Positions 7,309-46,261 of a DNA stretch of 64,000 bases are shown here, in pieces. The DNA is from Gracilariopsis chorda (lineage: Eukaryota; Rhodophyta; Florideophyceae; Gracilariales; Gracilariaceae): assembly GCA_003194525.1 (NCBI GenBank), contig NBIV01000097.1:62001-126000 (forward strand), written 5' to 3'. Both the position numbers and the translations under genes were made by a program. The notes below the pieces were generated by a model that searched no databases, had not been told where the DNA came from, and was given only the letters and a program-made list of their open reading frames with translations. Every line of letters begins with the position of its first letter. Positions within the stretch are counted from its first letter, which is position 1.

Positions 7309-8802
7309 GATTCAAGATGCCAACGGATTTCAACCAGATAAATGCACGATCAAAGTCCAGGCATGCTATGGCACGGGACTAATAGACTGGATACGTTTTC
7401 TCGAGAGGGAAACGATTTGCACCTTTCTTTTTTTGAAGATGTGACGAGAACTACTACTAGCACTTCCAAAGGAGTATAAGGACGATACGCATCCAGAGAC
7501 CAAAACGAAGTGCGAAGTCTCGCTTTGTCATCGTACACACGCCATTGCAGTGTACGACGAGAACATGCTGACATACTTCGCTAGAAAAAACGGATAGAAC
7601 GCCCCACTTCAACGAACCCCGAACAAGCTACCCGAAACTGCGACCCTCCTTGCACAAGAGACACAGGGACAGGGACCATCCAATCTTTTCGCAACTGTTG
7701 AAGTTGGGCAGCACATATGGGTTGGTTGTGCTTCCCCATCAACATGAGGTCTGCATTATGTCCCACGAAATTTACAGGTTTTCTGTCTGTCTTGTCCAAC
7801 GACTGCGGGGCTCAGATAGCGGGCCATTCCCGTGCACAGCGGGAGACGAAGTGAGGGACGCATCTTAGCTTGCGCCACGAGGAATGCTGAGGAGTAGCAA
7901 CAGGCCCCACAAATGAGCAATGAAATCCATCTGTTGCCGGTGTCACTGGTCTGTGGGAGAAAGGTGCTAGGATGTCCTACGACTCCAAAACCCTTGCGAA
8001 GTTGGCCAACAAGAGCTTCTGCTCTTTCATAATACTGCGAAGAAGACGGGAAAGGATGGGTCTCCGATGTTAATTAATATGCTCGTATACTCTGTACTTC
8101 AGTTGAGCTTCTATGATTTGCACCTGGCAAATCATGTGATGGGCAATAGTAGTGTAAGCATACGCAACATCCCTGCTCAAGGACTTCCAAAGCGTGCAGT
8201 GTTGACTACCAGTAAGTAGCTAAAGTTCGAAACGATTTCGGGTAAGAGAATGAGATCCGCTGTGAACCTTGCGGGGTGTCTGGTACAGGTACTCGTTCCA
8301 AGCATACAGAGAATGCACGTAGCTCGCCGGGGAACCGCTTCGAATAGTATGCTTGTTGTGAGAGCCAGAATAACACGACCCACAGAGTTGACTTCCAGAT
8401 GCGTCTGCCACAGTCGTACTCATTGTCGCCCACGGTCCCCCATGTGTCGCATGCTGTTCTATCAGATAGGCGTGGCTTCTCGCAATCACATACCCCCAGA
8501 TTGCAGATTTCGCTTCTTTCTTCCCTCTCCAAAGGTGTCTCGGTGCCCTGACTCGTCATCAAGGTCTCGAAATCTCGTGGTACAATAGGATTCACCTCGT
8601 CACCCATTCCCATACGGGTTTTTTTGGCTCCGACGCGCGAAATATGTCTCAGAAATGCTTGATAATAAAGCATATAGGTTACGTTGCGGCCCTGTTAGCA
8701 CTGTGACGAAAGATGAGTGAGGAGGACCAAGCCAACCGAGGCCACTGCGCATTGCTCTGTCTGCTGTAATGTGCCTTTGAAAGGCAATGCTGATGCAGGA
8801 TT
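7309..8802. other. Intergenic region, nothing convincing
   Basis: Contains one ATG-initiated 155-codon minus-strand frame (8673-8206) and several shorter ones. None shows a recognisable domain, signal peptide or repeat. I do not call a gene. Confidence 0.5.
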
Positions 8803-9237
8803 TCCATAAGAGGCTCGAATATGGTCAGTGCGGTATGGGTATGCTTGTTGAGCTTGAGAAGGAACGGTTTGGTAAAAGGTGTGTTGTGATAGGTTCAGAC
8901 GACGGTAGGTACCGTTTACATCGTTTATGCGCTGAAGCGCTTGGCGAATTCACGGGCAGCAGGGTTTCATCGGCCAGAGTGTATGCTCCGCGCAGGGTGA
9001 GTGAATGCGGGAACTGACGATTCGGTAAAGTGCCATCGGGACAAGGGTGACGAATACGAAACTGTGTGGCTACACGGGTAGGTAGGTAGAGAGTAGAGGA
9101 TGGATAAGTTTCGGCCGTTTTGAAAGTGCGTGGCACAGTGTTTAAGCTTTTAGGAAAGCTGTGGCCAAGCTGGGTGTTCATATGGATGTGGTGAAGAGTA
9201 CAGAGTTTAAGTAGGAACAGGGGGTGAAGTGAGTATC
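8803..9237 (+). repeat. Upstream spacer of 5S gene copy A
   Basis: About 435 bp ending at the first base of the 5S half-gene. The same spacer, nearly identical, lies upstream of the intact 5S gene of copy C (37880-38316, inverted), and its last ~205 bp lie upstream of copy B (about 24548-24751). It therefore belongs to a repeated 5S unit rather than to the LINE. A 60-codon open frame inside it is shared between A and C but has no other support. Confidence 0.8.
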
Positions 9238-9286
9238 ACATTCAACCATACCACGTCGCCAAACGCCGGATCCCATCCCGAACTCC
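9238..9286 (+). rRNA. 5S rRNA gene, 5' part (nt 1-49), split by LINE A
   Basis: Begins ACATTCAACC and ends with the target duplication CATCCCGAACTCC. Joined to 14971-15054 minus one 13-bp duplicate it rebuilds exactly 120 nt. This part alone lacks the internal promoter boxes. Confidence 0.9.
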
Positions 9287-9342
9287 CGAATCACAATCTT
9301 CGAAAAACAAAAACTTCATAAATTTATTCAAAAACCCACATT

Positions 9343-11748
9343 ATGAACGGGCCGGAGCGCCCAGAATGCCCACCACCGTCGCAACTTGCGCCGAAAACGA
9401 ACAAGCGACCCCACCAAGGTGACAAAACAAGTAACCTCACGCCAATATCTAAACGTAGAACGGACCGTAAAGTATCACTGAGAAATAAGACAAAAGGTCT
9501 TGGCACCAATCTCAATACACAGGGCGATTCTCATGAAGTAGATCCCATCAACCGACAAGATGAAGAAATGGAAGACAATATTACGTCTATAGCTGCCAAT
9601 ACTGTTCCCTCCACTAAGAACGTCCAGAAAGAAACTAAGAGCACTTCAGCAAATAACCTGCCGCATGTCGTCCACAACGATATAGTGGAATGCACGATAA
9701 AAAACAACGCCTCAGACACGAATATGCTGGATGTAGATAGGAATTCGAATGAAATAGAAGTATCAACAATCGATGTACATGATAAGGAGAACTCGGCAGA
9801 CGAGAATCCTCATAATGAAGATAGTGGAAGTCTTTTACAGGATACACAAAGTGCAGATAATGAACAAGCTGTAACCAAGAGTTCAGGCCATTCCAAAGCT
9901 AGAAAACAGAACTGGACTCTGACTGATGAGGTTCTTGCAGATCTGAAGTGCGCTTATTGCGAGGATATCGGTAGCATAAGACCTAGTGGTCAGAACAGAA
10001 ACGATCCGTATAGAGGACCAGCTCTAAAATGCAAATTATGCACTCGTAGGTTTCAGGGAAGATCGGTAATGAACTTATTGCATGCTGCTGCTCATAGTCC
10101 AGTAGTTTTTTCTGCTTTGAAAACAGCTGAAGAGTGGATACAGGAAAACAAAAAACAAATTGCAGCGCAGAAAGAAGAACAGAAGCAAGCCATGCAGGCG
10201 AAGAAAAGCAAGGAACAGCCACCAGATTGGATTCAAATCGCACTTCGTGATCATAAACATAAGCTTCGATGCCCGAACTGTCAGGCACAAGGAAAATTTA
10301 CTCTACATGGTAGATCAAAAGGTCTGAAGGTTCTTCGTTGCACTGAATGCAAAACAACCCAACCCGGGGATGCTGCTGATTCTGTTATGAGTAAAGCGTT
10401 GGGCAGTGACTGGCAAAAACAGATTACTCGTGGGTATCATACCCTAAACTTCACTGACAGTATACAAGAACACTGTTTCCCATCACCGTCTAGCCGAAAA
10501 GCCACGCCATGTGCCTGCACCCAGGAATCTGCCGAAATACCACCCATATCTTACCATGATATTCAAAATAAGATTGGATTACAAATCTCTGAAGAAGAAG
10601 GACAGGGACAGAGACAAATGGAAGAACAGAATGGGACCGATCGCACCTTACGCATGGCTATCAATGAAACGGAATGGGCAATTCTAGTAGAGACAATCAA
10701 GGACCTAAAGACTACTGTGAATTTCCTGAAGCACCAGAACAAAGTGTTAACAGAGAAGCTTGCACAGCTTACCAGCAATCAAACTGCGACTACAAACCAC
10801 GACACACCGCTTCACACATCAGGTCCCAGGACGCTCAGCTATACAAAGGAATGGCCCACACTGCATGCATTACAACATCAACACGAATCTGAAAACAAGC
10901 GTACGGAAGACCTAAGACTTCAGCAACAGGGAGGCAATACTAAGACATGGTCATCTATTGTCAGACAGGAACGTATGTCCAAGCTTCCTGATGAGCAAAG
11001 AATGAAGATTCATCAAACCCTACAAGCAATAGAGATCAGCAATTTACGTATGAATACCGCTCCGGAAGTTGATGTAGTCTACATCAAAGGTCTTAAACGT
11101 TCCCCATATGGGCTTATCAGGCGATCCTTGCAACACAGCATCCCACGTTCTTCACTGCTTGGTTTATCTTATATTGGAGGATCAATCCTAGAGATAATTA
11201 CGCTAAAGTCGCACAAGCACAGACTGATAGAAACACTTCAGCTTTTAGGATTACAACACATGGCAAACTTCTCGATAAGGGATGACGCGATGAAGAAGCA
11301 GGGCGAAAATAGTGACAAGAAGACTCGAGAAATGCAAAACTTAACCCGACTCATTAGACGAATGCAGCGCTGTGTTCGAAACTCAAAAAACCCTCTGGCA
11401 ACAAGATGGTATGCTGCGAGGCTGCAAGAAGCAAATAAGCGCATGACCGAACTAGACGCCAAAATATCTGATAAGCGTACCAAAGACACTGCGTCTACTC
11501 AGATCACCGAAGCACCAACTGCAGTTCAATCAGTAAGTGCGGACGCCGATGAAGTAGTTCAAGAAAGCCCTCCCACCCCCGGTTGTAATAATGTCACTAA
11601 CACTGGGTCCATAGAACCGAAGCCTGGAAAAACTGATGAACACAAACATGTATTGCACCCAGAAGATGCAAACTGCAGTAAGCAAGACACGGACACAGAA
11701 ATGACAGATCGCAGTCCAAAAGCCAACCAGCCTCCATTCTCATCGTAG
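9343..11748 (+). CDS. LINE A ORF1: zinc-binding nucleic-acid-binding protein
   Basis: 801 residues from the ATG in CATTATGAACGG. The N-terminal ~190 residues are polar and acidic. A first metal-binding cluster has Cys203/Cys206, Cys230/Cys233 and His247/His251. A second, zinc-ribbon-like cluster has CPNC (310-313) and CTEC (333-336). A coiled coil follows at about 440-480 (ETIKDLKTTVNFLKHQNKVL). The C-terminal part is basic and then acidic. LINE ORF1 proteins bind the element RNA and act as chaperones; here the zinc fingers could also recognise 5S DNA or RNA, which is inference. The stop codon lies 2 nt before the ORF2 ATG, in a different frame. Confidence 0.85.
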   Translation: MNGPERPECPPPSQLAPKTNKRPHQGDKTSNLTPISKRRTDRKVSLRNKTKGLGTNLNTQGDSHEVDPINRQDEEMEDNITSIAANTVPSTKNVQKETKSTSANNLPHVVHNDIVECTIKNNASDTNMLDVDRNSNEIEVSTIDVHDKENSADENPHNEDSGSLLQDTQSADNEQAVTKSSGHSKARKQNWTLTDEVLADLKCAYCEDIGSIRPSGQNRNDPYRGPALKCKLCTRRFQGRSVMNLLHAAAHSPVVFSALKTAEEWIQENKKQIAAQKEEQKQAMQAKKSKEQPPDWIQIALRDHKHKLRCPNCQAQGKFTLHGRSKGLKVLRCTECKTTQPGDAADSVMSKALGSDWQKQITRGYHTLNFTDSIQEHCFPSPSSRKATPCACTQESAEIPPISYHDIQNKIGLQISEEEGQGQRQMEEQNGTDRTLRMAINETEWAILVETIKDLKTTVNFLKHQNKVLTEKLAQLTSNQTATTNHDTPLHTSGPRTLSYTKEWPTLHALQHQHESENKRTEDLRLQQQGGNTKTWSSIVRQERMSKLPDEQRMKIHQTLQAIEISNLRMNTAPEVDVVYIKGLKRSPYGLIRRSLQHSIPRSSLLGLSYIGGSILEIITLKSHKHRLIETLQLLGLQHMANFSIRDDAMKKQGENSDKKTREMQNLTRLIRRMQRCVRNSKNPLATRWYAARLQEANKRMTELDAKISDKRTKDTASTQITEAPTAVQSVSADADEVVQESPPTPGCNNVTNTGSIEPKPGKTDEHKHVLHPEDANCSKQDTDTEMTDRSPKANQPPFSS

Positions 11749-11750
11749 AA

Positions 11751-14678
11751 ATGGCTCCACAACGAAACTTCTCGGTTGGGACGTACAACATTCGTGGCTT
11801 AAAATCGAATGAGCAATTGGTCGCTGAATGGATTCAACGCTCAGGCATTGCAGTAGCGGCAATAACGGAGACCTGGCTCAAGCCTGAGGACGATGTTGAC
11901 TACTTTATAACTGAGCATGTAGCTCTAGAACCTCGATGCCCAAATGGAAAAGGATACGGGGGGGTTGCTCTATCCATTCACCCGCTTCTTAGATATCAAG
12001 TGCTCAAGAAGTGCACCACAACTATTTATCAATACATTGCCATCAAATCCCAGGGAATTTCAATTGTAGGCTTGTACTTGTCTCCAGCAGCAACAGCCCA
12101 ACAAACCGAAGAGTGTTTCAAAGAGATTGGAGACCTGATTTGCTCACCATTCATAATAATGGGGGATTTCAACGCCAGGCACAAAGACTGGGACAAAAGT
12201 GAGAACAGACGTGGTCGATACTTACAAAAGCATGCGGTACAAAGAAAATGGACCATCAATACCCCTAAGGAAGACACACACCACCCAGCACCTAGCACGG
12301 GAAATCATAGTTCAACTATTGACTTCTTCATCACTCAGGGGATTCACCTCCAAAGAGCGGTGATAAATTCTGGACCATGGGATGGGTGTAGTGATCATTA
12401 TCCGGTCTATGCCAAGACAAATACAACCTGGACACTGCAAGAGCGCATGACATGCAAAACAGTCTCCCATCACCGCAGACTGAAACCGAATCTCCTTCAC
12501 AAGGCAGTGCAACTATACAGAAAAACCATTCCCATGACAACAACAAAAATTGAAGCCTGTCAATCCGAAGTTGAGTTGGATACACTTCTCACTAGTATTG
12601 AACATACGTTACTACTACCTTGGCAACGTCATATACAATGGAAGCCGGGAAAGCCACGTATTGGGTGGTCAAAACGTATACATGAACTGTCCAAACAAAG
12701 ATCGAAAGCATACCGCCGTGCCAAACACACAAAGAAAAGCGAGGATTGGAATGCATATAAGAAACTTGACCGAAGGGTGAAACGAGAAGCAAAGCAAATG
12801 CGCGAGATTAGAATGCATAATACCTTCCAACAGCTCGCAGAGAGCTCTGTGACGGATGCTTCCCGCAAACTCTCCCACCTAACGAGAGAGAAGAAACGCA
12901 AAAAGTCTTCAACATTGCACCAAGGCGGACCACTCGACCTGCAACAGTTTTCCGCGTATATTGCTACCCCACAAGGAAAAGGTTATGTACCAACAATGCA
13001 TCCTTTCAAAGTCGATAAGGAGTTTCAGGACCTTGTTGTTACCTCGATCAAAGAAGCTCAAAATGGAAAAAGTTGTGGCCCTGACGGAGTATTTGTTGAA
13101 GCATTGAAAACCGAGCCAGAAATGTTTGGCAAACTACTCACAGAAATATGGGCAAAGTGTGGTACAATTCAGTATATGCCACTCAGTTGGCGATCAGCAC
13201 GACTAGTGCCAATTCACAAAAAGGGAGATAGAAGCAATCCGAAGAACTACCGCCCGATCACAGTCATATCACAACTTCGAAAGCTAATTGACAAGGCAAT
13301 TGACAAATCCATTCGCAGTAGATACACATTTCATCCTGCGCAGCTGGGTTTTAGACAAAATGTGGGAGTTGAACACGCTATTATCCGCAGCACCAGAATG
13401 CTAGAACTGGGCATGCCATTTACGGCAGTTCTCGATCTGAAAAAGGCTTATGACACTGTTCCAAGAGACAAGCTCATGCAAATTGTGGAGCAGAAACTTC
13501 CAAAACACATTGCCAATATGATTGCATATCTGTTACAGCCAACAATTCTTCGCACTGCAAGAGACAATACCTCAAAAGAGGGAAAAGACGACAATGTAGT
13601 CAGAATTGGAGTTCCTCAAGGAGATCCGCCGAGCACAACCCTGTTTAACATGTACATGGATAAGTACGCAGAACAAATCTTACCACACACGAAACATTAT
13701 CGAAACCGAAACTATGGTCTGATCATGTTTGCCGACGATGTAAAACTGCAAACTCGCACAGCACAGTGTCTCCAATCCGTACTCAATCTATCTTCAGCGT
13801 GGAGTGTTGAAAGTAATATGCAGTGGGGTATATCAAAATGCTACATATTACAACCGCGATTAGACACTCCGAAAACATTCACGCTTGCGAACAGTGATCT
13901 CAAAAATGTCGACGACGTCGAATATCTGGGTGTTACTCTCTCCATTGATGGCATATCTTGCAAGAAATCAATCAAGCGATGTGAAGCTGCACATCTACGT
14001 GTAAAAGACTTACAAAGTTTTGGCCTTAACAACCGAAAACTTGATGCACTTCGCACTATCCAACTTTCCAAACTCCTGGTGATGCCCATTGCAGAGTATG
14101 CCATACATATCACGCCTCCATCAAAACCATTTTCGAAAAGTTATGACCGTCTTCAAAAAGCCATTATCCAATTAGCTATTGGATCAGTTCCAGAACGTCA
14201 TGTGCCCCGAGCAAGGAAATTGATAAAGTTTCCTCCATTACAATACAGAATCTCTTTACTTCTTGGAAACTTACACCGAAAACTTCAGCAGAATATTGAA
14301 CTACTTCATGGAGACCACGACAAGAGAGACTTAGCACGGGATGATTTTAAGGCTTTCATTATTCACAAGACAAAGTTCGATCTCCCTCCACCAACCTCAA
14401 AGAAAGCTCTGTACGATTTGTGGGATAGGCTGTGCAAAACAGCAGCCCGTCCTATTCCTACTTTAATAGGAAAGTACTTTCCACCAATTCTCCATCTAAA
14501 GTGTTGCGTACTGCGCAACAGCGGACTGCGGTGGTATTTCAACCAGTTTCCTGTCCAAAATAGGTACACCAGAAGCAGAGATTATGTTACTTTGCGAAAA
14601 AAACGGAGACTATCGATCAGCATATTGGATGCTTCGAGAAAACATGCAAAAGAGAAGTTGGTCGTTGAAAGATCGTAA
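11751..14678 (+). CDS. LINE A ORF2: endonuclease-reverse transcriptase
   Basis: 975 residues. The N-terminal ~225 residues are an exonuclease/endonuclease/phosphatase (APE-like) domain: YNIRG, ITETWLKP, MGDFNARHKDWD, and SDH at 214-216 with the catalytic His216. The reverse transcriptase spans about 470-720: SARLVPIHKKGD, NYRPITVIS, TAVLDLKKAYDTVPR, VPQGDPPSTTLFNMYMD and the catalytic FADD at 660-663. The TAGAAATG junction with ORF1 suggests termination-reinitiation. A run of seven A near codon 950 shifts the frame relative to copy C (six A), so the last ~50 residues of the longer C-terminus are replaced by a short ILDASRKHAKEKLVVERS tail; see findings. Confidence 0.92.
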   Translation: MAPQRNFSVGTYNIRGLKSNEQLVAEWIQRSGIAVAAITETWLKPEDDVDYFITEHVALEPRCPNGKGYGGVALSIHPLLRYQVLKKCTTTIYQYIAIKSQGISIVGLYLSPAATAQQTEECFKEIGDLICSPFIIMGDFNARHKDWDKSENRRGRYLQKHAVQRKWTINTPKEDTHHPAPSTGNHSSTIDFFITQGIHLQRAVINSGPWDGCSDHYPVYAKTNTTWTLQERMTCKTVSHHRRLKPNLLHKAVQLYRKTIPMTTTKIEACQSEVELDTLLTSIEHTLLLPWQRHIQWKPGKPRIGWSKRIHELSKQRSKAYRRAKHTKKSEDWNAYKKLDRRVKREAKQMREIRMHNTFQQLAESSVTDASRKLSHLTREKKRKKSSTLHQGGPLDLQQFSAYIATPQGKGYVPTMHPFKVDKEFQDLVVTSIKEAQNGKSCGPDGVFVEALKTEPEMFGKLLTEIWAKCGTIQYMPLSWRSARLVPIHKKGDRSNPKNYRPITVISQLRKLIDKAIDKSIRSRYTFHPAQLGFRQNVGVEHAIIRSTRMLELGMPFTAVLDLKKAYDTVPRDKLMQIVEQKLPKHIANMIAYLLQPTILRTARDNTSKEGKDDNVVRIGVPQGDPPSTTLFNMYMDKYAEQILPHTKHYRNRNYGLIMFADDVKLQTRTAQCLQSVLNLSSAWSVESNMQWGISKCYILQPRLDTPKTFTLANSDLKNVDDVEYLGVTLSIDGISCKKSIKRCEAAHLRVKDLQSFGLNNRKLDALRTIQLSKLLVMPIAEYAIHITPPSKPFSKSYDRLQKAIIQLAIGSVPERHVPRARKLIKFPPLQYRISLLLGNLHRKLQQNIELLHGDHDKRDLARDDFKAFIIHKTKFDLPPPTSKKALYDLWDRLCKTAARPIPTLIGKYFPPILHLKCCVLRNSGLRWYFNQFPVQNRYTRSRDYVTLRKKRRLSISILDASRKHAKEKLVVERS

Positions 14679-14970
14679 TGAAACTGAGCATGCTATTCAA
14701 AAACTTCTGCAGATTGATTCAAAGGCTTACACACATATTTCTCGCAATAAGACATGAATGAACCATAGGTCATGAGACAAAACAACGACTAACGCTCTCT
14801 GAAAATGGCAGCAGCAGCTTCGATCTTGGGAAACATCTCCGTTGAAGGGTTGTAAGCTAGCTAGGAGGCCGAACGAATACTTTGTGCTTGAATGTTGACT
14901 AGACTCTGCAGAGTCGCCTACGCGCCCTGTATGGGGACATCAGGTGCTCTCTAAAGTAAACCATAAATTA

Positions 14971-15054
14971 CATCCCGAACTCCGAAGCTAAGCCGCGTTG
15001 GGCCGGGCTAGTACTGACATGAGGGATCGGTCTGGAATCCCCGGTGTTGAATGT
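14971..15054 (+). rRNA. 5S rRNA gene, 3' part (nt 37-120), after LINE A
   Basis: Contains the whole internal control region: box A AAGCTAAGCCGCGTTGGGC, intermediate element GGCTAGTACT, box C around GATCGGTCTGGAATCCCCGG, and the 3' strand of helix I (GTTGAATG), then a T6 terminator and a longer T/C tract. It could still recruit TFIIIA/Pol III and produce a LINE-tail/5S chimera. Confidence 0.9.
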
Positions 15055-15479
15055 TTTTTCCTTTTTTTCCTTTTTTTTCTTCCCAACACTTCCATACACC
15101 CACACCATCCAAGTGTTCCAGGTTCGATTCTCCTTCCTCTAATCACTCCGTTCCCATCCATCCCCATACACTCTACTCTGCTTACCCACCTTGTTTTACC
15201 AAGGGTAGGTTCTCAAGTTCGAGATTCTGAAGCCGTTTTAAGGACTTCCCGATCTTTTCCGCGCGGCTTTGTTGATGATGTATTTGAACGGTACCAAGAA
15301 TAAAGGGATAGTCTTCTTTCCCCTCCCCAGCCCGTGTCAATCCGAGAATTTCCTTAGAAGAGCACAAGCGAGTGCTCACTGATTGCTGATGATTCCATGA
15401 CCACTAAACCCTTACTGTCTTAGAGCCATCCGGTGTAGATGCAATTTTTTTTGAATTTGACTTGAGTTCTATACAGTAT

Positions 15480-17929: not shown

Positions 17930-20098
17930 GATGGGGGACAGGTATTAGGAACATGTGCAACCTGGATATCGAGGGGCTGGAATGAAGGCTTTGAGCAAAC
18001 TCATACTAGCTATTATAGACAAAACATCGTATCTACTTCTGTGGAAGTACTGCTTCGAAACCGATGGCTGATATTGGCATCCTGATGCTGCTCTGATATC
18101 GGAAAAGAATCGGTGTGACCGGTACGGTACGAGGCGAAATGGCTCCATAAACGGTACCATATAGGGTCAAAGTATCATCAAGTTTTGCAGCTCTGCGGAG
18201 CCCTTTTGTTTTCATCTATCAATATAAGTATGGCTTAGGCATCAGAAATTACTTCCAGGAGTAGTTCTGTCCTGTACGTTCGAGAAGGTACGGAGTTTCA
18301 GGTGCACTAGGTTCGGATGAAGAACCGTCAGTAGGAGTTCTACAGGTCTTCTGGAGGGATTCATTAGCAGCGTTCCCGATACATAATAAGCGAATGGCAT
18401 CTGCCCACTGCGTTGGTACTAAAGAGATAGTGACAAATATACCTGCAGAACGGGGTGATACTGAATCCCAACGAATGAATTGCTGAATGTGCGGGGAAGT
18501 ACTGCACAACTGGTTCGGATTTGGTCTTACTCGTATCAGTGCGGGTACCGTTGGCAATCGGAAATCGGAAATCAGAAACGTATCGCGAATACCCTTACAA
18601 GCATTTCTGAAACGGTTCCATGGACTGGCATTAGATAATCTGTAGTGCTCTCTAGGGAAACAGGATTGGTAAAGACTAATTATATGCACAAGCTTGGAAT
18701 CGGGGATATCGGCAATGATGGCTAGGATAACCTGTAACGATATGCAATTACTAGTACCGGGGACAGCATAGACAAGATTACCATGCTTCCGCAAGACAAC
18801 AAGAGCTGTTTCAGACAAGCGTGGTTGGTCACGGAAAAAACCCTCTGCAAACGGGCATCTCAGATCTTCAGGGCGTTGGTTCAACGGCCTGTCTCAATGC
18901 AAGTTCAGCGAGCAAGAGATTTCAGATGATCAGGCGTCCGGTGGAGACGGACAAAAAAGAGCTGGAGATTAAACCTTACGGAGGTTGCGTGAGAACAGGA
19001 GTTGAGGAGTGGAACTGTGCTTCGAGTAGTTTTTTTTTGGCTCAGATGCTTGGTAAAACGCGCGGAAGTGGACCATACTGCACATGAGTCAGTCTAGAGT
19101 GTTCTTTGGGAGAGGTGTAGAGAGGCCAACCCGAGAGTCTTGTTGCTGTTGTTCTTGCTTTTGGGCGGACGAAGCCAAATTCCGACGTGGACGCACCAAC
19201 TCTCAAAGAAGCTAATCTCTGCCGCGGAAGCCAAGTTCTCGAGGCAGACCCAGTTGCGGATCCATTGCTTCCTCCTGATTCGCATCGGCAGGAAGGTCGG
19301 CTCACCACGACTGGCGGATTAATGCATTCTGTCCAAAGCAGGGCCACTGGCGGTTCCCGAGTGATCCTTCAGCGCAGAACTAATCCATCAAAAAGCGACT
19401 TAGCTCCGCAGCTCTGGAGATGAGCTACGACAGCTTCCACTTCAGCCCAGCTCGCTTGGACGGGTTTAGCGACATCCCGGAATCCCAAGGTTTTTCAAAC
19501 GGTAATCGCAAGCAAAGCGTTCTGTGTTCAACTGGTTGGAAGGTTTGCGGGACAGTTTCTTCTGGTGAAATTTGAGTTCGTGATATCAGATTTAAGAAGA
19601 AGCGCGTGGCCAAAACTTGTCGTAGACTTTCTTGGACGACTATCAACGGGTAAAATGTCTCTCTTACCGCAATAATGTCTTGGATTTGGAAGCTAATGTA
19701 GTGGTGCCGGTCATTTCGAAAACACCAGCGTTCCTGACTACGATACAGTCATCAATATCTACCTAAGCAGTGGTAGCGGTATCAGTGGGGAAGGGGGTGA
19801 GCGCGGGAGCATCCAAGGCGGGAGGGCTGGGTCGCACTGGAGCATTCCCCGCGGTACGACCACGACCGCAAAAAGTGATTAGTGTGGGCCACACTAATGA
19901 CAGTGATCGTCCGTAGTTGCGAGTACGTGCAACCGGTTTGCACAGGGGAACGTAAGGCCCCTGTGACAAAAGTTTGCATCCGCGCACTCCTCGTGACATT
20001 ATCTTGGGTCCGCCACACCTCTAAAATCGTCTTCCAGCCTGTGTCGTCATTGTTACATCTATCGAGTTCAGCTGTGTCGGAGCAGCAACAGCGGCACA
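17930..20098. other. Intergenic region, nothing convincing
   Basis: A 211-codon minus-strand open frame (18884-18249) has no ATG at all and no recognisable domain. No repeats shared with the rest of the window were noticed. Confidence 0.5.
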
Positions 20099-23000
20099 AT
20101 GGATATTGCCTTGGTTGATCCGGTTGTTACGGTGGTTACAAAGCTTGAAACAATCGTAAAGAGTTACTGTGACCGAGGCGACATCATTGAAGACAATAGA
20201 AAGCAGCTTGGTCGGCTCAAACGAGATTATGCAGCGGCTGCAAGAGTACTTCGGCTACTTCAGAGCTTGAAAAGGCTCACACTCGATACTGTTACACATG
20301 AAAGGTTAGGGCTCTTCAAGGAAGAGTTAGAAGAAGACAGGAACGCTCTTGAATCACTGGAGGAATTTATCAGCAAAGCCAACCGCTGGAGAAGAGTTAG
20401 GAGAATGGAATCCGTACTTGATGACTGCGAAGCACGTAGCAAAGAGTTGTTCCAGTTCCTGAACGATAAAATCTCTCCAATGTTAACACGTCAACCTCCG
20501 CAGCCAGATGAGTACACTGCGCGTCGGAATTCGGTGCCACGGAACCCGCCGAGACTGATATTGGACTACAGTACAAGCGATACATGCGAAGGCAAACTGA
20601 AAGATGCTGTTCTCTGCCTGGGAGAAAGCCAAGTCGTGGCTGTTCTAGCTTGTGGACAAGGCGGCGTTGGGAAGACATGCGCCTTGCGAGGCCTTGCTGA
20701 CGAAACCGAAGTGAAGAATGTATTCCCTGGAGAACTTCTTTACATCCAACTTGGGAATGACGCGACGATGAAGAGCACTGTGGAGGGCATTGCGACCGTA
20801 GTGGATAAGACAGGGGGTAAGCAATTGGCTAAGAATATAAGAGAAAGTTCATTAGCAACAGCAGCAGAGAAGGCCTCGGATTGGTTCTGTGCGCACACCT
20901 GTTTGTTTTTTGTAGATGATATCTGGCGAGTGAATGGCATTGACTCGGGTGTGTTGAACACTCTTGAATCGATGATGAACGAAAAGAGTCGAATGATATA
21001 CACAAGTGGAGATGAGCGTTTTCTAAATCGGGCTCATATTGTGATTGAATTCAAGAAGAAAGACACGCACGGGGAACTGTCGCGCCGGATGCTGATGAAG
21101 CACGCAGGGTTTGATGCAGAGTATGACCTCAGCAAGGAGAACAAGAAAGCATTCGAGGCTATTCTGGATATTTGTGACGGGCTTCCGCTCGCATGTGGTA
21201 TTGCCGGAAGTGCAGTGTTGAATATCTCACGCTCAAAGAGCCAAGAGGAGAGACAAGATGCATGGTCAAAGTTTCACCAGGATATATTGTCACATACAAG
21301 AGATATGTATGATGTTACAATGGAAGGGTACGGCAATTTGCCCAAGATCGTTGATGCTTCTCTCGAAGTTTTGGAAAAAAGTAGCAGTAAGGGAAGGTAC
21401 TGCGAACGGTTTCGGGCTTTGTGCGTTCTTCAGAAGCAGCAGAAGGTTTCGACTCGTATGCTTCATAAATTGTGGGATATGGAGAACTTGGCTGATGCTG
21501 AACGAGTTGTGGACAGGTTCAAAGAAGTGTCCATTGCACAGAAACGAGATGATGGAGGTTTGGTATATATTCAGTTGCATGACATTGTTCTCGATATTGC
21601 GACTCGAATGGCGGAAGAAAGAGGTCAGAGACACAAAATGTTCCGAGATCTGGTTTACAGTTACACTCCACGCCTTCGATGGGGTGATACTTCGTTTGAG
21701 TGGTGGGAAACAGAAGGTGACGGCTACGTTCACGAAAACGTATGTAGACTTCTTCGGGATGCCGAACATGTGTGCCAACTGATGTGGGTTTTGTCAAAGC
21801 CACAATGGATCGCAAAACGTCTCGTGAAGGATGGAATCTACGCCGTTGAGCAGGATCTGAAGCATGGAATAGCCATCGCAGAGAACAGCAATTACGGGTA
21901 TGCGAATCACAAGAAGCACCTCGAAATGGTGAGCAGAGCTGCGCGCATGAGCTGCACCACAGTCGTCAAGAACCCTCGTGAAGTTTGGTTTCAACTGCAC
22001 GGGCGTTTGCTGTGGCATGCGACGAAATGCAAACAGACGAAGAAGTTTGTGGAGGAAATTGAAAAGTGCGCGCCGAGACCATGGGTGAAAGCATCCTTGG
22101 GAATTTTGGAAGCTCCAAGTGATGCTGAGGAAATTATCCGCGTTCCTGGATATGTAATGAGCATAAGCATGGAGGAGGATGATACTTGGATTTTCTGGAA
22201 ACGTGCTACCTTTGGTGATGATGATAAAGCCATAGGTGTTTCAAAGCACACGAGAACGAGTGGTGTTTGCGAACATCACCCTTTCGTCATGAAAGAAGAG
22301 GACAAAGCGTGGCTACTCGATGTTGGTTGCGAAGCATTCGCCACAACGGGCGATCGGAGAAGCGTTGTGACAGCGCATCGCAACGGCAGAATTGCGACGT
22401 GGAATAGAGATACGGGGGAAATGGAGCGAGTGGTCGAGTGCCTCGGATACATTGCAGCTCCAGGATCGCGGTTTGTTGAGTTCAACTGTGACGGGACGCG
22501 AGTGGCGTCTACTAGTTCACAACACGAGATCCGAGTATGGGATACAGGCAGCGGTAAGGCGATGGGGGCACAGCTCTTGGGCCACATAGAGTTTGTGAGA
22601 TGTGTTGCGTTTAGCTCCAACGGTAGTTTGCTTGTGTCGGGGTCAAGAGACAATACGGTGCGCGTGTGGAGCCAGCGCAGCGAGGAAGCACTGATGCCGC
22701 CGCTCGTCGGTCACACTGACTTGGTTTCGTGCGTGGCTGTGAGTGCGGATGGCAAGCGCATTGTGTCGGGGGTCTATGGACAAGACGGTGCGCGTTTGGA
22801 ACGGGCATAGCGGAGAGGCGCTGACGCAGCCGCTCGTCGGTCACATTGGTGACATTTTGTGCGTGGTTGTGAGCGGGGATGGCAAGCGCATTATGTCGGG
22901 ATCAGGGGATAAGACGGTGCGCGTGTGGAAGGCGCACAGCGGGGAGGCGGCGACGCCGCCGCTAGTCGGTCACACTAAATCGGTTTTGTGCGTGGCTGTG

Positions 23001-23688
23001 ATCGCGGATGGCACGCGCATTGCGTCAGGGTCATGGGGCAAGACGGTGCGCGTGTGGAGTGCGCACAGCGGGGAGGCGCCGGCGCCGACGCCGCCGCTGG
23101 TCGGTCACACGTCTTTCGTTCAACACGTGGCTGTGAGCGCGGACGGAACGCGCATTGTGTCGGGGTCCGTGGATAAGACGGTGCGCTTGTGGGACGCTCA
23201 CAGCGGGGAGGCGCTGACGCCGCCGCTCGTCGGTCACACTTCTCCTATTTCAGTGCGTGGCCGTGAGTGCGGACGGCAAGCGCATTGTGTCGGGCTCCTC
23301 TGACCAGACGGTGCGCGTGTGGAACGCAGAAAACGGGCAAGCAGTGCGTACGTTTGTGTTCGACGATTGGCCGATGCGAATAGCGGTGGACGCGCACGGT
23401 TGGAAAGTTGTGTCGGTTGTTTGGGCTGCGTGCTTTTTGTTGGACGAGAGTAGCGGAGAGTGTGAAATGACGTAGAGGAATGCGGCGTGGCAGCCGACGG
23501 TGGACGCGCTCGACCTGTGGTGGTCGCGAGGGGAGTTGTTTTACAATGCCCGTAACGAACGGGAAGTGCGCGATGGAGGCGAGGCAGGGCAACTGCTGGC
23601 CACCTGTGAATGCAAAGTTACGAATGTCAGCGGCAGCGACTGGTACGCCTCGGCCAATTTTGACAAGAGGTGCCAAATAATTCGCTGA
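20099..23688 (+). pseudogene. NB-ARC/WD40 NLR-type gene with two frameshifts and a stop
   Basis: The first frame (20099-22810) encodes a helical/coiled-coil N-terminal region (1-150), then an NB-ARC ATPase: Walker A GQGGVGKT at 186-193, Walker B LFFVDDIW at 269-276, an RNBS-B-like MIYTSGDERF, and GLPL at 361-364. A ~330-residue linker is followed by WD40 repeats from about 22440. The WD frame is broken by one extra G in a G5 run (22768-22772), continues in the next frame to an extra G at 23253, continues in the third, meets TAG at 23473-23475, and the same frame then stays open to the TGA at 23686-23688 (VDALDLWWSRGELFYN...). Homologues act as STAND-class immune or incompatibility switches. 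All ATPase motifs are intact, so decay is recent or the lesions are assembly errors. Confidence 0.85.
22570..23345 (+). repeat. Tandem 129-bp WD40-coding repeats
   Basis: About six direct repeats of a 43-codon unit with the pattern GHT-xxxx-CVAVSADGKRIVSGS-xx-KTVRVW-xxHSGEALTPPLV. Long DNA words such as GACGGTGCGCGTGTGGA recur in nearly every unit, so the array is homogenised at the DNA level. Differences cluster after GHT and before KTVRVW. Confidence 0.9.
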
Positions 23689-24751: not shown

Positions 24752-24800
24752 ACATTCAACCATACCACGTCGCCAAACGCCGGATCCCATCCCGAACTCC
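24752..24800 (+). rRNA. 5S rRNA gene, 5' part (nt 1-49), split by LINE B
   Basis: Identical in extent to the 5' part at copy A and interrupted at the same nucleotide, ending CATCCCGAACTCC. Confidence 0.9.
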
Positions 24801-24856
24801 CGAATCACAATCTTCGAAAAACAAAAACTTCATAAATTTATTCAAAAACCCACATT

Positions 24857-27262
24857 ATGAACGGGCCGGAGCGCCCAGAATGCCCACCACCGTCGCAACT
24901 TGCGCCGAAAACGAACAAGCGACCCCACCAAGGTGACAAAACAAGTAACCTCACGCCAATATCTAAACGTAGAACGGACCGTAAAGTATCACTGAGAAAT
25001 AAGACAAAAGGTCTTGGCACCAATCTCAATACACAGGGCGATTCTCATGAAGTAGATCCCATCAACCGACAAGATGAAGAAATGGAAGACAATATTACGT
25101 CTATAGCTGCCAATACTGTTCCCTCCACTAAGAACGTCCAGAAAGAAACTAAGAGCACTTCAGCAAATAACCTGCCGCATGTCGTCCACAACGATATAGT
25201 GGAATGCACGATAAAAAACAACGCCTCAGACACGAATATGCTGGATGTAGATAGGAATTCGAATGAAATAGAAGTATCAACAATCGATGTACATGATAAG
25301 GAGAACTCGGCAGACGAGAATCCTCATAATGAAGATAGTGGAAGTCTTTTACAGGATACACAAAGTGCAGATAATGAACAAGCTGTAACCAAGAGTTCAG
25401 GCCATTCCAAAGCTAGAAAACAGAACTGGACTCTGACTGATGAGGTTCTTGCAGATCTGAAGTGCGCTTATTGCGAGGATATCGGTAGCATAAGACCTAG
25501 TGGTCAGAACAGAAACGATCCGTATAGAGGACCAGCTCTAAAATGCAAATTATGCACTCGTAGGTTTCAGGGAAGATCGGTAATGAACTTATTGCATGCT
25601 GCTGCTCATAGTCCAGTAGTTTTTTCTGCTTTGAAAACAGCTGAAGAGTGGATACAGGAAAACAAAAAACAAATTGCAGCGCAGAAAGAAGAACAGAAGC
25701 AAGCCATGCAGGCGAAGAAAAGCAAGGAACAGCCACCAGATTGGATTCAAATCGCACTTCGTGATCATAAACATAAGCTTCGATGCCCGAACTGTCAGGC
25801 ACAAGGAAAATTTACTCTACATGGTAGATCAAAAGGTCTGAAGGTTCTTCGTTGCACTGAATGCAAAACAACCCAACCCGGGGATGCTGCTGATTCTGTT
25901 ATGAGTAAAGCGTTGGGCAGTGACTGGCAAAAACAGATTACTCGTGGGTATCATACCCTAAACTTCACTGACAGTATACAAGAACACTGTTTCCCATCAC
26001 CGTCTAGCCGAAAAGCCACACCATGTGCCTGCACCCAGGAATCTGCCGAAATACCACCCATATCTTACCATGATATTCAAAATAAGATTGGATTACAAAT
26101 CTCTGAAGAAGAAGGACAGGGACAGAGACAAATGGAAGAACAGAATGGGACCGATCGCACCTTACGCATGGCTATCAATGAAACGGAATGGGCAATTCTA
26201 GTAGAGACAATCAAGGACCTAAAGACTACTGTGAATTTCCTGAAGCACCAGAACAAAGTGTTAACAGAGAAGCTTGCACAGCTTACCAGCAATCAAACTG
26301 CGACTACAAACCACGACACACCGCTTCACACATCAGGTCCCAGGACGCTCAGCTATACAAAGGAATGGCCCACACTGCATGCATTACAACATCAACACGA
26401 ATCTGAAAACAAGCGTACGGAAGACCTAAGACTTCAGCAACAGGGAGGCAATACTAAGACATGGTCATCTATTGTCAGACAGGAACGTATGTCCAAGCTT
26501 CCTGATGAGCAAAGAATGAAGATTCATCAAACCCTACAAGCAATAGAGATCAGCAATTTACGTATGAATACCGCTCCGGAAGTTGATGTAGTCTACATCA
26601 AAGGTCTTAAACGTTCCCCATATGGGCTTATCAGGCGATCCTTGCAACACAGCATCCCACGTTCTTCACTGCTTGGTTTATCTTATATTGGAGGATCAAT
26701 CCTAGAGATAATTACGCTAAAGTCGCACAAGCACAGACTGATAGAAACACTTCAGCTTTTAGGATTACAACACATGGCAAACTTCTCGATAAGGGATGAC
26801 GCGATGAAGAAGCAGGGCGAAAATAGTGACAAGAAGACTCGAGAAATGCAAAACTTAACCCGACTCATTAGACGAATGCAGCGCTGTGTTCGAAACTCAA
26901 AAAACCCTCTGGCAACAAGATGGTATGCTGCGAGGCTGCAAGAAGCAAATAAGCGCATGACCGAACTAGACGCCAAAATATCTGATAAGCGTACCAAAGA
27001 CACTGCGTCTACTCAGATCACCGAAGCACCAACTGCAGTTCAATCAGTAAGTGCGGACGCCGATGAAGTAGTTCAAGAAAGCCCTCCCACCCCCGGTTGT
27101 AATAATGTCACTAACACTGGGTCCATAGAACCGAAGCCTGGAAAAACTGATGAACACAAACATGTATTGCACCCAGAAGATGCAAACTGCAGTAAGCAAG
27201 ACACGGACACAGAAATGACAGATCGCAGTCCAAAAGCCAACCAGCCTCCATTCTCATCGTAG
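24857..27262 (+). CDS. LINE B ORF1
   Basis: 801 residues, identical in protein sequence to copy A ORF1, with both zinc-binding clusters and the coiled coil intact. One silent difference was noticed (GCCACG to GCCACA near 26019). An intact ORF1 makes B a candidate active element. Confidence 0.85.
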   Translation: MNGPERPECPPPSQLAPKTNKRPHQGDKTSNLTPISKRRTDRKVSLRNKTKGLGTNLNTQGDSHEVDPINRQDEEMEDNITSIAANTVPSTKNVQKETKSTSANNLPHVVHNDIVECTIKNNASDTNMLDVDRNSNEIEVSTIDVHDKENSADENPHNEDSGSLLQDTQSADNEQAVTKSSGHSKARKQNWTLTDEVLADLKCAYCEDIGSIRPSGQNRNDPYRGPALKCKLCTRRFQGRSVMNLLHAAAHSPVVFSALKTAEEWIQENKKQIAAQKEEQKQAMQAKKSKEQPPDWIQIALRDHKHKLRCPNCQAQGKFTLHGRSKGLKVLRCTECKTTQPGDAADSVMSKALGSDWQKQITRGYHTLNFTDSIQEHCFPSPSSRKATPCACTQESAEIPPISYHDIQNKIGLQISEEEGQGQRQMEEQNGTDRTLRMAINETEWAILVETIKDLKTTVNFLKHQNKVLTEKLAQLTSNQTATTNHDTPLHTSGPRTLSYTKEWPTLHALQHQHESENKRTEDLRLQQQGGNTKTWSSIVRQERMSKLPDEQRMKIHQTLQAIEISNLRMNTAPEVDVVYIKGLKRSPYGLIRRSLQHSIPRSSLLGLSYIGGSILEIITLKSHKHRLIETLQLLGLQHMANFSIRDDAMKKQGENSDKKTREMQNLTRLIRRMQRCVRNSKNPLATRWYAARLQEANKRMTELDAKISDKRTKDTASTQITEAPTAVQSVSADADEVVQESPPTPGCNNVTNTGSIEPKPGKTDEHKHVLHPEDANCSKQDTDTEMTDRSPKANQPPFSS

Positions 27263-27264
27263 AA

Positions 27265-30192
27265 ATGGCTCCACAACGAAACTTCTCGGTTGGGACGTAC
27301 AACATTCGTGGCTTAAAATCGAATGAGCAATTGGTCGCTGAATGGATTCAACGCTCAGGCATTGCAGTAGCGGCAATAACGGAGACCTGGCTCAAGCCTG
27401 AGGACGATGTTGACTACTTTATAACTGAGCATGTAGCTCTAGAACCTCGATGCCCAAATGGAAAAGGATACGGGGGGGTTGCTCTATCCATTCACCCGCT
27501 TCTTAGATATCAAGTGCTCAAGAAGTGCACCACAACTATTTATCAATACATTGCCATCAAATCCCAGGGAATTTCAATTGTAGGCTTGTACTTGTCTCCA
27601 GCAGCAACAGCCCAACAAACCGAAGAGTGTTTCAAAGAGATTGGAGACCTGATTTGCTCACCATTCATAATAATGGGGGATTTCAACGCCAGGCACAAAG
27701 ACTGGGACAAAAGTGAGAACAGACGTGGTCGATACTTACAAAAGCATGCGGTACAAAGAAAATGGACCATCAATACCCCTAAGGAAGACACACACCACCC
27801 AGCACCTAGCACGGGAAATCATAGTTCAACTATTGACTTCTTCATCACTCAGGGGATTCACCTCCAAAGAGCGGTGATAAATTCTGGACCATGGGATGGG
27901 TGTAGTGATCATTATCCGGTCTATGCCAAGACAAATACAACCTGGACACTGCAAGAGCGCATGACATGCAAAACAGTCTCCCATCACCGCAGACTGAAAC
28001 CGAATCTCCTTCACAAGGCAGTGCAACTATACAGAAAAACCATTCCCATGACAACAACAAAAATTGAAGCCTGTCAATCCGAAGTTGAGTTGGATACACT
28101 TCTCACTAGTATTGAACATACGTTACTACTACCTTGGCAACGTCATATACAATGGAAGCCGGGAAAGCCACGTATTGGGTGGTCAAAACGTATACATGAA
28201 CTGTCCAAACAAAGATCGAAAGCATACCGCCGTGCCAAACACACAAAGAAAAGCGAGGATTGGAATGCATATAAGAAACTTGACCGAAGGGTGAAACGAG
28301 AAGCAAAGCAAATGCGCGAGATTAGAATGCATAATACCTTCCAACAGCTCGCAGAGAGCTCTGTGACGGATGCTTCCCGCAAACTCTCCCACCTAACGAG
28401 AGAGAAGAAACGCAAAAAGTCTTCAACATTGCACCAAGGCGGACCACTCGACCTGCAACAGTTTTCCGCGTATATTGCTACCCCACAAGGAAAAGGTTAT
28501 GTACCAACAATGCATCCTTTCAAAGTCGATAAGGAGTTTCAGGACCTTGTTGTTACCTCGATCAAAGAAGCTCAAAATGGAAAAAGTTGTGGCCCTGACG
28601 GAGTATTTGTTGAAGCATTGAAAACCGAGCCAGAAATGTTTGGCAAACTACTCACAGAAATATGGGCAAAGTGTGGTACAATTCAGTATATGCCACTCAG
28701 TTGGCGATCAGCACGACTAGTGCCAATTCACAAAAAGGGAGATAGAAGCAATCCGAAGAACTACCGCCCGATCACAGTCATATCACAACTTCGAAAGCTA
28801 ATTGACAAGGCAATTGACAAATCCATTCGCAGTAGATACACATTTCATCCTGCGCAGCTGGGTTTTAGACAAAATGTGGGAGTTGAACACGCTATTATCC
28901 GCAGCACCAGAATGCTAGAACTGGGCATGCCATTTACGGCAGTTCTCGATCTGAAAAAGGCTTATGACACTGTTCCAAGAGACAAGCTCATGCAAATTGT
29001 GGAGCAGAAACTTCCAAAACACATTGCCAATATGATTGCATATCTGTTACAGCCAACAATTCTTCGCACTGCAAGAGAAAATACCTCAAAAGAGGGAAAA
29101 GACGACAATGTAGTCAGAATTGGAGTTCCTCAAGGAGATCCGCCGAGCACAACCCTGTTTAACATGTACATGGATAAGTACGCAGAACAAATCTTACCAC
29201 ACACGAAACATTATCGAAACCGAAACTATGGTCTGATCATGTTTGCCGACGATGTAAAACTGCAAACTCGCACAGCACAGTGTCTCCAATCCGTACTCAA
29301 TCTATCTTCAGCGTGGAGTGTTGAAAGTAATATGCAGTGGGGTATATCAAAATGCTACATATTACAACCGCGATTAGACACTCCGAAAACATTCACGCTT
29401 GCGAACAGTGATCTCAAAAATGTCGACGACGTCGAATATCTGGGTGTTACTCTCTCCATTGATGGCATATCTTGCAAGAAATCAATCAAGCGATGTGAAG
29501 CTGCACATCTACGTGTAAAAGACTTACAAAGTTTTGGCCTTAACAACCGAAAACTTGATGCACTTCGCACTATCCAACTTTCCAAACTCCTGGTGATGCC
29601 CATTGCAGAGTATGCCATACATATCACGCCTCCATCAAAACCATTTTCGAAAAGTTATGACCGTCTTCAAAAAGCCATTATCCAATTAGCTATTGGATCA
29701 GTTCCAGAACGTCATGTGCCCCGAGCAAGGAAATTGATAAAGTTTCCTCCATTACAATACAGAATCTCTTTACTTCTTGGAAACTTACACCGAAAACTTC
29801 AGCAGAATATTGAACTACTTCATGGAGACCACGACAAGAGAGACTTAGCACGGGATGATTTTAAGGCTTTCATTATTCACAAGACAAAGTTCGATCTCCC
29901 TCCACCAACCTCAAAGAAAGCTCTGTACGATTTGTGGGATAGGCTGTGCAAAACAGCAGCCCGTCCTATTCCTACTTTAATAGGAAAGTACTTTCCACCA
30001 ATTCTCCATCTAAAGTGTTGCGTACTGCGCAACAGCGGACTGCGGTGGTATTTCAACCAGTTTCCTGTCCAAAATAGGTACACCAGAAGCAGAGATCATG
30101 TTACTTTGCGAAAAAAACGGAGACTATCGATCAGCATATTGGATGCTTCGAGAAAACATGCAAAAGAGAAGTTGGTCGTTGAAAGATCGTAA
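27265..30192 (+). CDS. LINE B ORF2: endonuclease-reverse transcriptase
   Basis: 975 residues with endonuclease (SDH) and reverse transcriptase (FADD) motifs intact. Differs from copy A by Asp-to-Glu in TARENTS and Tyr-to-His in RSRDHVTL; the His is shared with the older copy C, so Tyr in A is derived. Carries the same A7 tract and shortened C-terminus as copy A. Starts 2 nt after the ORF1 stop. Confidence 0.92.
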   Translation: MAPQRNFSVGTYNIRGLKSNEQLVAEWIQRSGIAVAAITETWLKPEDDVDYFITEHVALEPRCPNGKGYGGVALSIHPLLRYQVLKKCTTTIYQYIAIKSQGISIVGLYLSPAATAQQTEECFKEIGDLICSPFIIMGDFNARHKDWDKSENRRGRYLQKHAVQRKWTINTPKEDTHHPAPSTGNHSSTIDFFITQGIHLQRAVINSGPWDGCSDHYPVYAKTNTTWTLQERMTCKTVSHHRRLKPNLLHKAVQLYRKTIPMTTTKIEACQSEVELDTLLTSIEHTLLLPWQRHIQWKPGKPRIGWSKRIHELSKQRSKAYRRAKHTKKSEDWNAYKKLDRRVKREAKQMREIRMHNTFQQLAESSVTDASRKLSHLTREKKRKKSSTLHQGGPLDLQQFSAYIATPQGKGYVPTMHPFKVDKEFQDLVVTSIKEAQNGKSCGPDGVFVEALKTEPEMFGKLLTEIWAKCGTIQYMPLSWRSARLVPIHKKGDRSNPKNYRPITVISQLRKLIDKAIDKSIRSRYTFHPAQLGFRQNVGVEHAIIRSTRMLELGMPFTAVLDLKKAYDTVPRDKLMQIVEQKLPKHIANMIAYLLQPTILRTARENTSKEGKDDNVVRIGVPQGDPPSTTLFNMYMDKYAEQILPHTKHYRNRNYGLIMFADDVKLQTRTAQCLQSVLNLSSAWSVESNMQWGISKCYILQPRLDTPKTFTLANSDLKNVDDVEYLGVTLSIDGISCKKSIKRCEAAHLRVKDLQSFGLNNRKLDALRTIQLSKLLVMPIAEYAIHITPPSKPFSKSYDRLQKAIIQLAIGSVPERHVPRARKLIKFPPLQYRISLLLGNLHRKLQQNIELLHGDHDKRDLARDDFKAFIIHKTKFDLPPPTSKKALYDLWDRLCKTAARPIPTLIGKYFPPILHLKCCVLRNSGLRWYFNQFPVQNRYTRSRDHVTLRKKRRLSISILDASRKHAKEKLVVERS

Positions 30193-30484
30193 TGAAACTG
30201 AGCATGCTATTCAAAAACTTCTGCAGATTGATTCAAAGGCTTACACACATATTTCTCGCAATAAGACATGAATGAACCATAGGTCATGAGACAAAACAAC
30301 GACTAACGCTCTCTGAAAATGGCAGCAGCAGCTTCGATCTTGGGAAACATCTCCGTTGAAGGGTTGTAAGCTAGCTAGGAGGCCGAACGAATACTTTGTG
30401 CTTGAATGTTGACTAGACTCTGCAGAGTCGCCTACGCGCCCTGTATGGGGACATCAGGTGCTCTCTAAAGTAAACCATAAATTA

Positions 30485-30568
30485 CATCCCGAACTCCGAA
30501 GCTAAGCCGCGTTGGGCCGGGCTAGTACTGACATGAGGGATCGGTCTGGAATCCCCGGTGTTGAATGT
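30485..30568 (+). rRNA. 5S rRNA gene, 3' part (nt 37-120), after LINE B
   Basis: Same 84-nt segment as at copy A, with the internal promoter intact, followed by T6 and a T/C-rich tract. The downstream ~250 bp spacer (to CCACATCTTC near 30815) is shared with copy C, apart from a later ~42-bp indel. Confidence 0.9.
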
Positions 30569-34044: not shown

Positions 34045-34293
34045 CTTTCTTCGAAGATGTGGCGGTGGTTGATGGAAAGGGGACAAGCAGAAAGGAAGGG
34101 GTGGAAGTGGTGCGGAAGGCGGTGGGTAAAGGGTTAGGGTTGTAGGTTTGGTACGGTTGATAGGTGATGTGAGGGAATGGGGTGAGGGTGAGGGAGGGAT
34201 GATGAAGGAGGGGGATTGGAACTGAGGACTTGGATAGTGATGTGGGTGTATGGAAGTGTGTTGGGAAGAAAAAAAAGGAAAAAAAAGGAAAAA
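34045..34293 (-). repeat. Downstream spacer of the 5S half at copy C
   Basis: Reverse complement matches the spacer after copy B (T/C tract, CACACTTCCATACACCC, ending CCACATCTTC), with a short deletion in the CACCCT-type repeats. Confidence 0.75.
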
Positions 34294-34377
34294 ACATTCA
34301 ACACCGGGGATTCCAGACCGATCCCTCATGTCAGTACTAGCCCGGCCCAACGCGGCTTAGCTTCGGAGTTCGGGATG
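34294..34377 (-). rRNA. 5S rRNA gene, 3' part (nt 37-120), after LINE C
   Basis: The same 84-nt segment as at copies A and B, including one copy of CATCCCGAACTCC (34365-34377), so the LINE 3' junction is at the same nucleotide. The matching 5S 5' part is missing at the other end. Confidence 0.9.
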
Positions 34378-37730: not shown

Positions 37731-37759
37731 GAAGAAAAAAAAGGAAAAAAAAGGAAAAA
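37731..37759 (-). terminator. Pol III terminator and T/C tract after 5S
   Basis: Reads T6-CC-T8-CC-T8-CTTCCC after the 5S gene in transcription direction. The same tract (T7-8 blocks) follows all three 5S 3' halves, so it is part of the conserved 5S unit. Confidence 0.85.
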
Positions 37760-37879
37760 ACATTCAACACCGGGGATTCCAGACCGATCCCTCATGTCAG
37801 TACTAGCTCGGCCCAACGCGGCTTAGCTTCGGAGTTCGGGATGGGATCCGGCGTTTGGCGACGTGGTATGGTTGAATGT
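37760..37879 (-). rRNA. Intact 5S rRNA gene, 120 nt
   Basis: Complete: helix I strands ACATTCAAC and GTTGAATGT pair perfectly; loop A region CCATCCCGAACTCCGAAG; box A AAGCTAAGCCGCGTTGGGC; intermediate element GAGCTAGTACT; box C GATCGGTCTGGAATCCCCGG; followed by T6, the Pol III terminator. It is the only uninterrupted 5S gene in the window. It has GAGCTAG where the three half-genes have GGGCTAG. Confidence 0.95.
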
Positions 37880-46108: not shown

Positions 46109-46261
46109 TGTGTGATGTTGGGTTGTGATTAGGGTTGTGAAGAGAAGGGGATGCAAGTTGAGAGAATCAGTTGGTTGGGAGTGAGCTGATTTGAGTTGGA
46201 GGGGTACGAGTGGGGATGGAGGGGAGGGGAAGGCGGTTGGAGAGGATGGGAGTGGGTGAGG

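Follow-up and report, generated by a model that had tools for sequence, protein, structure and literature searches.

The locus analysed here raises the question of whether a LINE of the red alga Gracilariopsis chorda is specialized for insertion at a single nucleotide of 5S rRNA genes. The window (the whole stretch of 64,000 nucleotides that was analysed, part of contig C97; positions are window coordinates unless another contig is named) contains two copies of such an element with complete 5′ ends, termed A and B. As the initial annotation described, both follow nucleotide 49 of a 5S gene and carry the 13-bp sequence CATCCCGAACTCC on each side, and in both the 5S parts minus one repeat amount to 120 nucleotides (49+84−13). 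The best explanation for the data presented below is a site-specific non-LTR retrotransposon that targets the 5S genes of a red alga and would insert by target-primed reverse transcription, a reading to which we assign a probability of about 0.88.

Structure and coding content of the element

The two full-length copies and their host genes comprise the following features.

9238–9286, plus strand: 5′ part of the copy A host gene (5S nucleotides 1–49), identical to nucleotides 1–49 of the intact 5S gene at 37879–37759
9287–14970, plus strand: LINE copy A, 5684 bp, with ends set by the 5S junctions
9343–11748, plus strand: ORF1 of A, 801 amino acids, with two CX2C pairs (identified by eye)
11751–14678, plus strand: ORF2 of A, 975 amino acids from its ATG, with endonuclease and reverse transcriptase (PF03372, PF14529, PF00078)
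14971–15054, plus strand: 3′ part of the copy A host gene (5S from nucleotide 37), from the 5S junction comparison
24752–24800, plus strand: 5′ part of the 5S gene that hosts copy B, from the same comparison
24801–30484, plus strand: LINE copy B, with frames as in A
30485–30568, plus strand: 3′ part of the 5S gene that hosts copy B, likewise from the junction comparison

The element has 56 bp ahead of ORF1, and the ATG of ORF2 in copy A starts two bases past the ORF1 stop codon, in another frame. Pfam domains place an endonuclease of the Exo_endo_phos type at the N terminus of ORF2 and a reverse transcriptase in the same frame, and the residues that we take to be catalytic are invariant among six aligned sequences (the element and five relatives). 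ORF1 of A has no match in Pfam and a single match among PDB sequences (E 0.93), which we regard as chance, and the endonuclease region alone has no match among PDB sequences at E 0.01. In a repeat scan of the window, no repeat of 60 or more nucleotides links one end of the element to the other, and the final 151 nucleotides fold no better than shuffled sequences (z 0.86). Taken with the copies described below, the element has the features of a site-specific LINE: a single ORF for endonuclease and reverse transcriptase, absence of LTRs, one insertion nucleotide, and 5′-truncated copies with target duplications.

All copies found share one 3′ junction

The initial annotation proposed that 5S–LINE junctions be tabulated across the genome, and held that a majority of copies outside 5S genes would speak against 5S specificity. 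We searched 91,333,945 bases in 1081 contigs, and the resulting counts are lower bounds. A query from the 3′ end of the element (14600–14970, free of 5S sequence) identified at least eight copies (eight candidates, eight scored), which comprise A, B, a third copy in the window (C), and one each on contigs C808, C37, C602, C396 and C224, the last of these matching just the final 84 bases of the query. In 8/8 copies the element directly precedes 5S nucleotide 37, such that the 3′ junction lies at nucleotides 36/37; copy C thus has the junction of A and B, as had been noted. The pattern that would have spoken against specificity, a majority of copies outside 5S genes, is absent among the copies found. 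A LINE with an apurinic-type (AP) endonuclease that is specific for one nucleotide of the 5S gene is therefore well supported.

Two further searches were made. At least 51 matches were listed for the ORF2 protein (46 of 72 candidates scored), and among these an identity above 32% was seen solely at A, B, C and the copies on C37 and C808. Among the best 40 of 45 candidates in a search with the 5S sequence, eight are 3′ halves behind an element, one is the 5′ half of the gene that hosts A, and the other 31 are other 5S sequences, which include the gene restored next to C as well as a few partial sequences.

The 5′ junction varies between the copies found, and the 3′ junction is constant. Four copies (A, B and those on C808 and C37) have a complete 5′ end, and all four begin after 5S nucleotide 49. 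The remainder are truncated at element positions 2331 (C), 5331 (C602 and C396) and 5601 (C224), with the same 3′ junction throughout.

One extra A at element position 5311 is common to A, B and the C808 copy, relative to C and the C37 copy, and alters the end of ORF2. A 1024-codon ORF2 frame is kept in the latter two, with respect to which the C terminus of A is frame-shifted. On the strength of this frameshift, A, B and the C808 copy may be defective. Both ORFs of the C37 copy are open in the pieces that were read.

The 5S genes of this alga are dispersed and of several sequence types, with 76–100% identity to the window gene; the uninterrupted gene at 37759–37879 is the sole Rfam match at gathering score in the window. 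On contig C135, two 5S pairs lie in opposite orientation less than 400 bp apart.

Target duplications vary in length

The initial annotation described the same 13-bp duplication at A and B, but this length is not a fixed property of insertion. A, B and the C808 copy carry 13 bp, but the truncated copies rule out a constant length: C602 and C396 carry CATCCCGCACT, of 10–11 bp when one shared base is allowed for, C224 carries 9–11 bp, and C carries 113–115 bp. The features at copy C are these.

34263–34377, minus strand: second copy of the C target duplication, which contains 5S nucleotides 37–121
34378–37730, minus strand: LINE copy C, 5′-truncated at element position 2331, with an open ORF2 frame of 1024 amino acids at 34591–37665
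37729–37843, minus strand: first copy of the C target duplication, a direct repeat with 34263–34377 (99%)
37759–37879, minus strand: uninterrupted 5S gene beside C (Rfam RF00001, 85.6 bits), restored by the duplication

The duplication at C ends in a T-rich tract behind the gene, and a complete 5S gene (37759–37879) was thereby restored. The observed order, with an intact 5S gene immediately ahead of C and a 5S 3′ part beyond it, could also be produced without any long target duplication, if C sat between two tandem 5S genes of which one had lost its 5′ region. We consider this improbable, because the direct repeat stops at the element and because the C808 locus, which has the same downstream flank, holds one uninterrupted 5S gene and thus presents the empty site expected for C.

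At least five insertion events

The initial annotation regarded A and B as recent independent insertions with different outer flanks. The two elements indeed differ by only a few bases (3 of 5684 positions), and their flanks do differ farther out. Nearby, however, the flanks are homologous, over 252 bp upstream (4 mismatches) and over 150 aligned columns downstream (95% identity), with the 5S parts included in both cases. Comparison with contig C808 bears on this further, as a block that includes the element and its flanks is common to A and the C808 copy.

8790–15105, plus strand: shared block of A and the copy on C808, about 6.3 kb (right end approximate, set by eye)

From position 8790, A and the C808 copy have 448 bp of 5′ flank in common, with three mismatches at the outer edge and one-base gaps, and they also share a flank variant and a derived T at element position 5297. 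Within the element they differ only by single-base indels and two 3-base clusters. C808 is rich in single-base indels, which are probably sequencing errors. The same contig has the flank that lies downstream of B and the one that lies far upstream of C, an arrangement that would follow from an inversion between the B and C genes. When 24549–38082 of C97 (window coordinates) is compared with 3700–15323 of C808, the stretch between the 5S genes of B and C is inverted, and from the sequences the inversion on C808 apparently arose when 5S units in inverted orientation recombined.

Independent insertion of A and B is unsupported by these comparisons, and we reject it as unproven. Their membership in a larger segmental duplication, which had been named as the observation that would count against independence, is borne out in part, through the sharing of C808 with each. 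Because of the 6.3-kb block and the downstream flank shared by B and C808, we count A, B and the C808 copy as one event. Nonetheless, with 4 differences in 252 flank positions and 3 in 5684 element positions, an origin of A and B by separate insertion or by conversion is possible. The C602 and C396 copies are likewise counted as one event, since they have the same truncation point and flanks.

At least five insertion events result (A/B/C808; C; C37; C602 with C396; C224), with one 3′ junction for all. That the eight copies reflect still fewer insertions, spread by duplication or conversion of 5S units without any targeting, draws on the same shared sequences, namely the block common to A and C808, the flank common to B and C808, and the likeness of C602 and C396 in truncation point and flanks. 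We judge this very unlikely: the five groups are distinguished by 5′ truncation point, 5S type or target duplication, a diversity that duplication alone would not yield, and five distinct 5′ junctions are combined with one common 3′ junction.

A mosaic copy and the proposed integration mechanism

The constancy of the 3′ junction, alongside 5′ junctions that shift, agrees with the prediction of target-primed reverse transcription for a first nick on the bottom strand at nucleotides 36/37. In our model, the endonuclease would nick this strand between nucleotides 36 and 37 of the 5S gene, and the freed end of the target would serve as primer for reverse transcription, with the element RNA as template. 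Cutting of the top strand would follow at a varying distance, usually about 10 bp and in one case about 115 bp downstream.

The copy on C37 is informative with respect to the 5′ end, because the two sides of its 5S gene are of different types. An uninterrupted 5S gene at C37:299621, 84 kb away on the same contig, is identical over nucleotides 37–121 to the 3′ part at the element, and we refer to this as the target type. The 5′ part has target-type bases at nucleotides 7–8, but has the base of the C97 type (the source type) at 8/8 diagnostic positions (nucleotides 17, 20, 26, 32, 33, 44, 47 and 48). Source-type 5S sequence therefore spans nucleotides 17–49 on the 5′ side, whereas the 3′ side is of the target type from its first diagnostic base (nucleotide 44), and the 13-bp repeats differ at 3/13 positions (44, 47 and 48). 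Contig C834 was left out of this comparison of 5S types.

A pre-existing mosaic target cannot yield two unlike repeats, and so either a 5S leader came in with the element RNA or the 5′ side underwent conversion afterwards. The mosaic sequence suggests the former, a parallel to R2. We slightly favor a model in which the template RNA begins in the upstream 5S gene, a step informed by a single copy (n = 1, C37). The upstream region of the 5S gene would stay attached to the inserted element, such that the full-length RNA would begin with a 5S leader; the end of the cDNA could then anneal to 5S sequence at the new target, and homology would complete the 5′ junction. Alternatively, the RNA may lack a leader and the 5′ side of the C37 copy may have been converted after insertion from another copy of the element, for which we estimate odds somewhat below even. 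The 5S units here undergo duplication and inversion, and the C37 element does not differ from A anywhere in its first 390 bp, compared with 39 differences over all 5684 positions; this absence is also what conversion would give and is mildly in its favor. The deficit is weak, however, given that only about 2.7 differences are expected in those 390 bp, and the 3′ side is already of the target type at nucleotide 44, which argues against conversion.

Use of the 5S promoter by the leader-bearing RNA would fit the short distance of 56 bp before ORF1, together with the TATA-like stretches (seen by eye) ahead of many 5S genes. Transcription of the entire element by Pol III is unlikely, because its sense strand has eight runs of four or more T, one of them six long. 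A search of the region near the 5′ end (9130–9600) against Rfam at E values up to 5 gave two matches, neither of them to a ribozyme, although divergent ribozymes could escape this search.

Related LINEs at other rDNA sites

Five ORF2 proteins from the same genome, with 26–28% identity to that of the 5S element, group with it (100/100, against two other reverse transcriptase sequences of the genome). The position of the 5S element relative to other relatives has values of 88/91, which we do not take as a placement. An ORF2 scan of viral and prokaryote sequence collections gave no relatives outside this genome.

Contigs C560, C588 and C117 carry LINEs (degenerate on C117) that run antisense to 18S and all terminate at the same nucleotide, about 1.16 kb upstream of it (loci L067, L068, L069, L075, L076 and L086). 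This junction has 17 matches, of which 14 begin at the target side only; among these, the one on C120 was read and is without an element. The 5′ ends of the C560 and C588 LINEs lie inside 18S, and thus about 1.2 kb of target is missing. A LINE on contig C7 (L074, C7:5680–7400) ends in a 28S rRNA gene, also antisense, presumably not far from the R2 site. LINEs on C237, C435, C142 and C140 end in flanks that are mutually unlike when inspected by eye. Five related LINE copies with a spacing of about 9.82 kb form a tandem array at C140 130768–172477.

More tentatively, and with the odds leaning against so broad a proposal, red algae might harbor a distinct AP-endonuclease LINE lineage that has colonized rDNA more than once (5S genes, a fixed position about 1.16 kb upstream of 18S and, for a single copy, 28S). 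Its 5S member would combine a 5S promoter, a leader RNA and completion by homology, as proposed for R2, with a different endonuclease.

Comparison with known systems

A profile of the element and five relatives matches L1 ORF2p over endonuclease and reverse transcriptase (127 bits) and R2 over the reverse transcriptase only (118 bits), within a reference set free of Tx1, Jockey, CR1 and R1. ORF2 alone at E 0.001 matches R2 and not L1, and these matches do not place the element in a clade.

Among fish elements, Mutsu, which we take to belong to the Tx1 group, is the closest in outline. It is a zebrafish LINE of about 5.5 kb with two ORFs that inserts in 5S rRNA genes (PMC11202950, PMC3706591). 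The likeness seen is one of ORF number, length and 5S target, and the hosts differ (an alga and a fish). Dada-5S elements of fish share the 5S target, but are transposase-bearing DNA transposons and not retrotransposons (PMC8869645).

R2 has a restriction-like endonuclease after its reverse transcriptase, whereas the endonuclease here is AP-type and N-terminal, with no restriction-like endonuclease among the Pfam matches. Both elements are specific for an rRNA gene. R2 inserts in 28S genes, and its RNA is made within the rRNA co-transcript and has an HDV-like ribozyme (PMC12203849), which differs from the absence of ribozyme matches in Rfam near the 5′ end here. R9 of rotifers makes an exceptionally long target duplication in rDNA, according to a title cited in PMC12203849; here a long duplication is seen in copy C only, within a 5S target. 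The Dictyostelium LINE TRE5 likewise has an AP-type endonuclease and inserts in the vicinity of Pol III genes, including extrachromosomal 5S genes, at 37–54 bp upstream (PMC5911963), in contrast to one nucleotide inside the gene here.

A literature search at the level of listings, with subscription journals mostly outside its coverage, gave no published description of a red algal element of this kind. Every feature has precedent, and to the extent of that search the host group and the combination of features appear to be new. If the published record is complete in this respect, 5S-specific LINEs extend beyond fish with this element. Insertions into divergent 5S genes offer a natural record of how LINE integration is finished at the 5′ end, a step that is poorly known, and with relatives at other rDNA sites in the same genome, changes of target could be traced within one group.

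Other features of the window and genome

The window also holds a gene with NB-ARC and WD40 repeats (19997–23370), whose repeats run beyond the end of its long frame, and two minus-strand frames rich in Gly-Gly-Asn repeats (45257–49460). Elsewhere in the genome, the phycobilisome linker family PF00427 is found at seven loci, 7/7 above the cut-off. For one of these (351 amino acids), the top whole-sequence match is the multi-domain protein CpcN of 8imn (566 bits summed over five stretches) and the best single stretch is with LR3 of 5y6p (468 bits, residues 21–347), compared with 291 bits for LR3 of 6kgx; we take 5y6p to be from Griffithsia (Florideophyceae) and 6kgx from Porphyridium. The presence of such linker genes on large contigs indicates a red algal host, probably a florideophyte. 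Finally, an ORF at C193:122113 (L064) shows a weak match to the phycobilisome, is extended at its N terminus and lies beside a frame that presumably resembles peptide deformylase.
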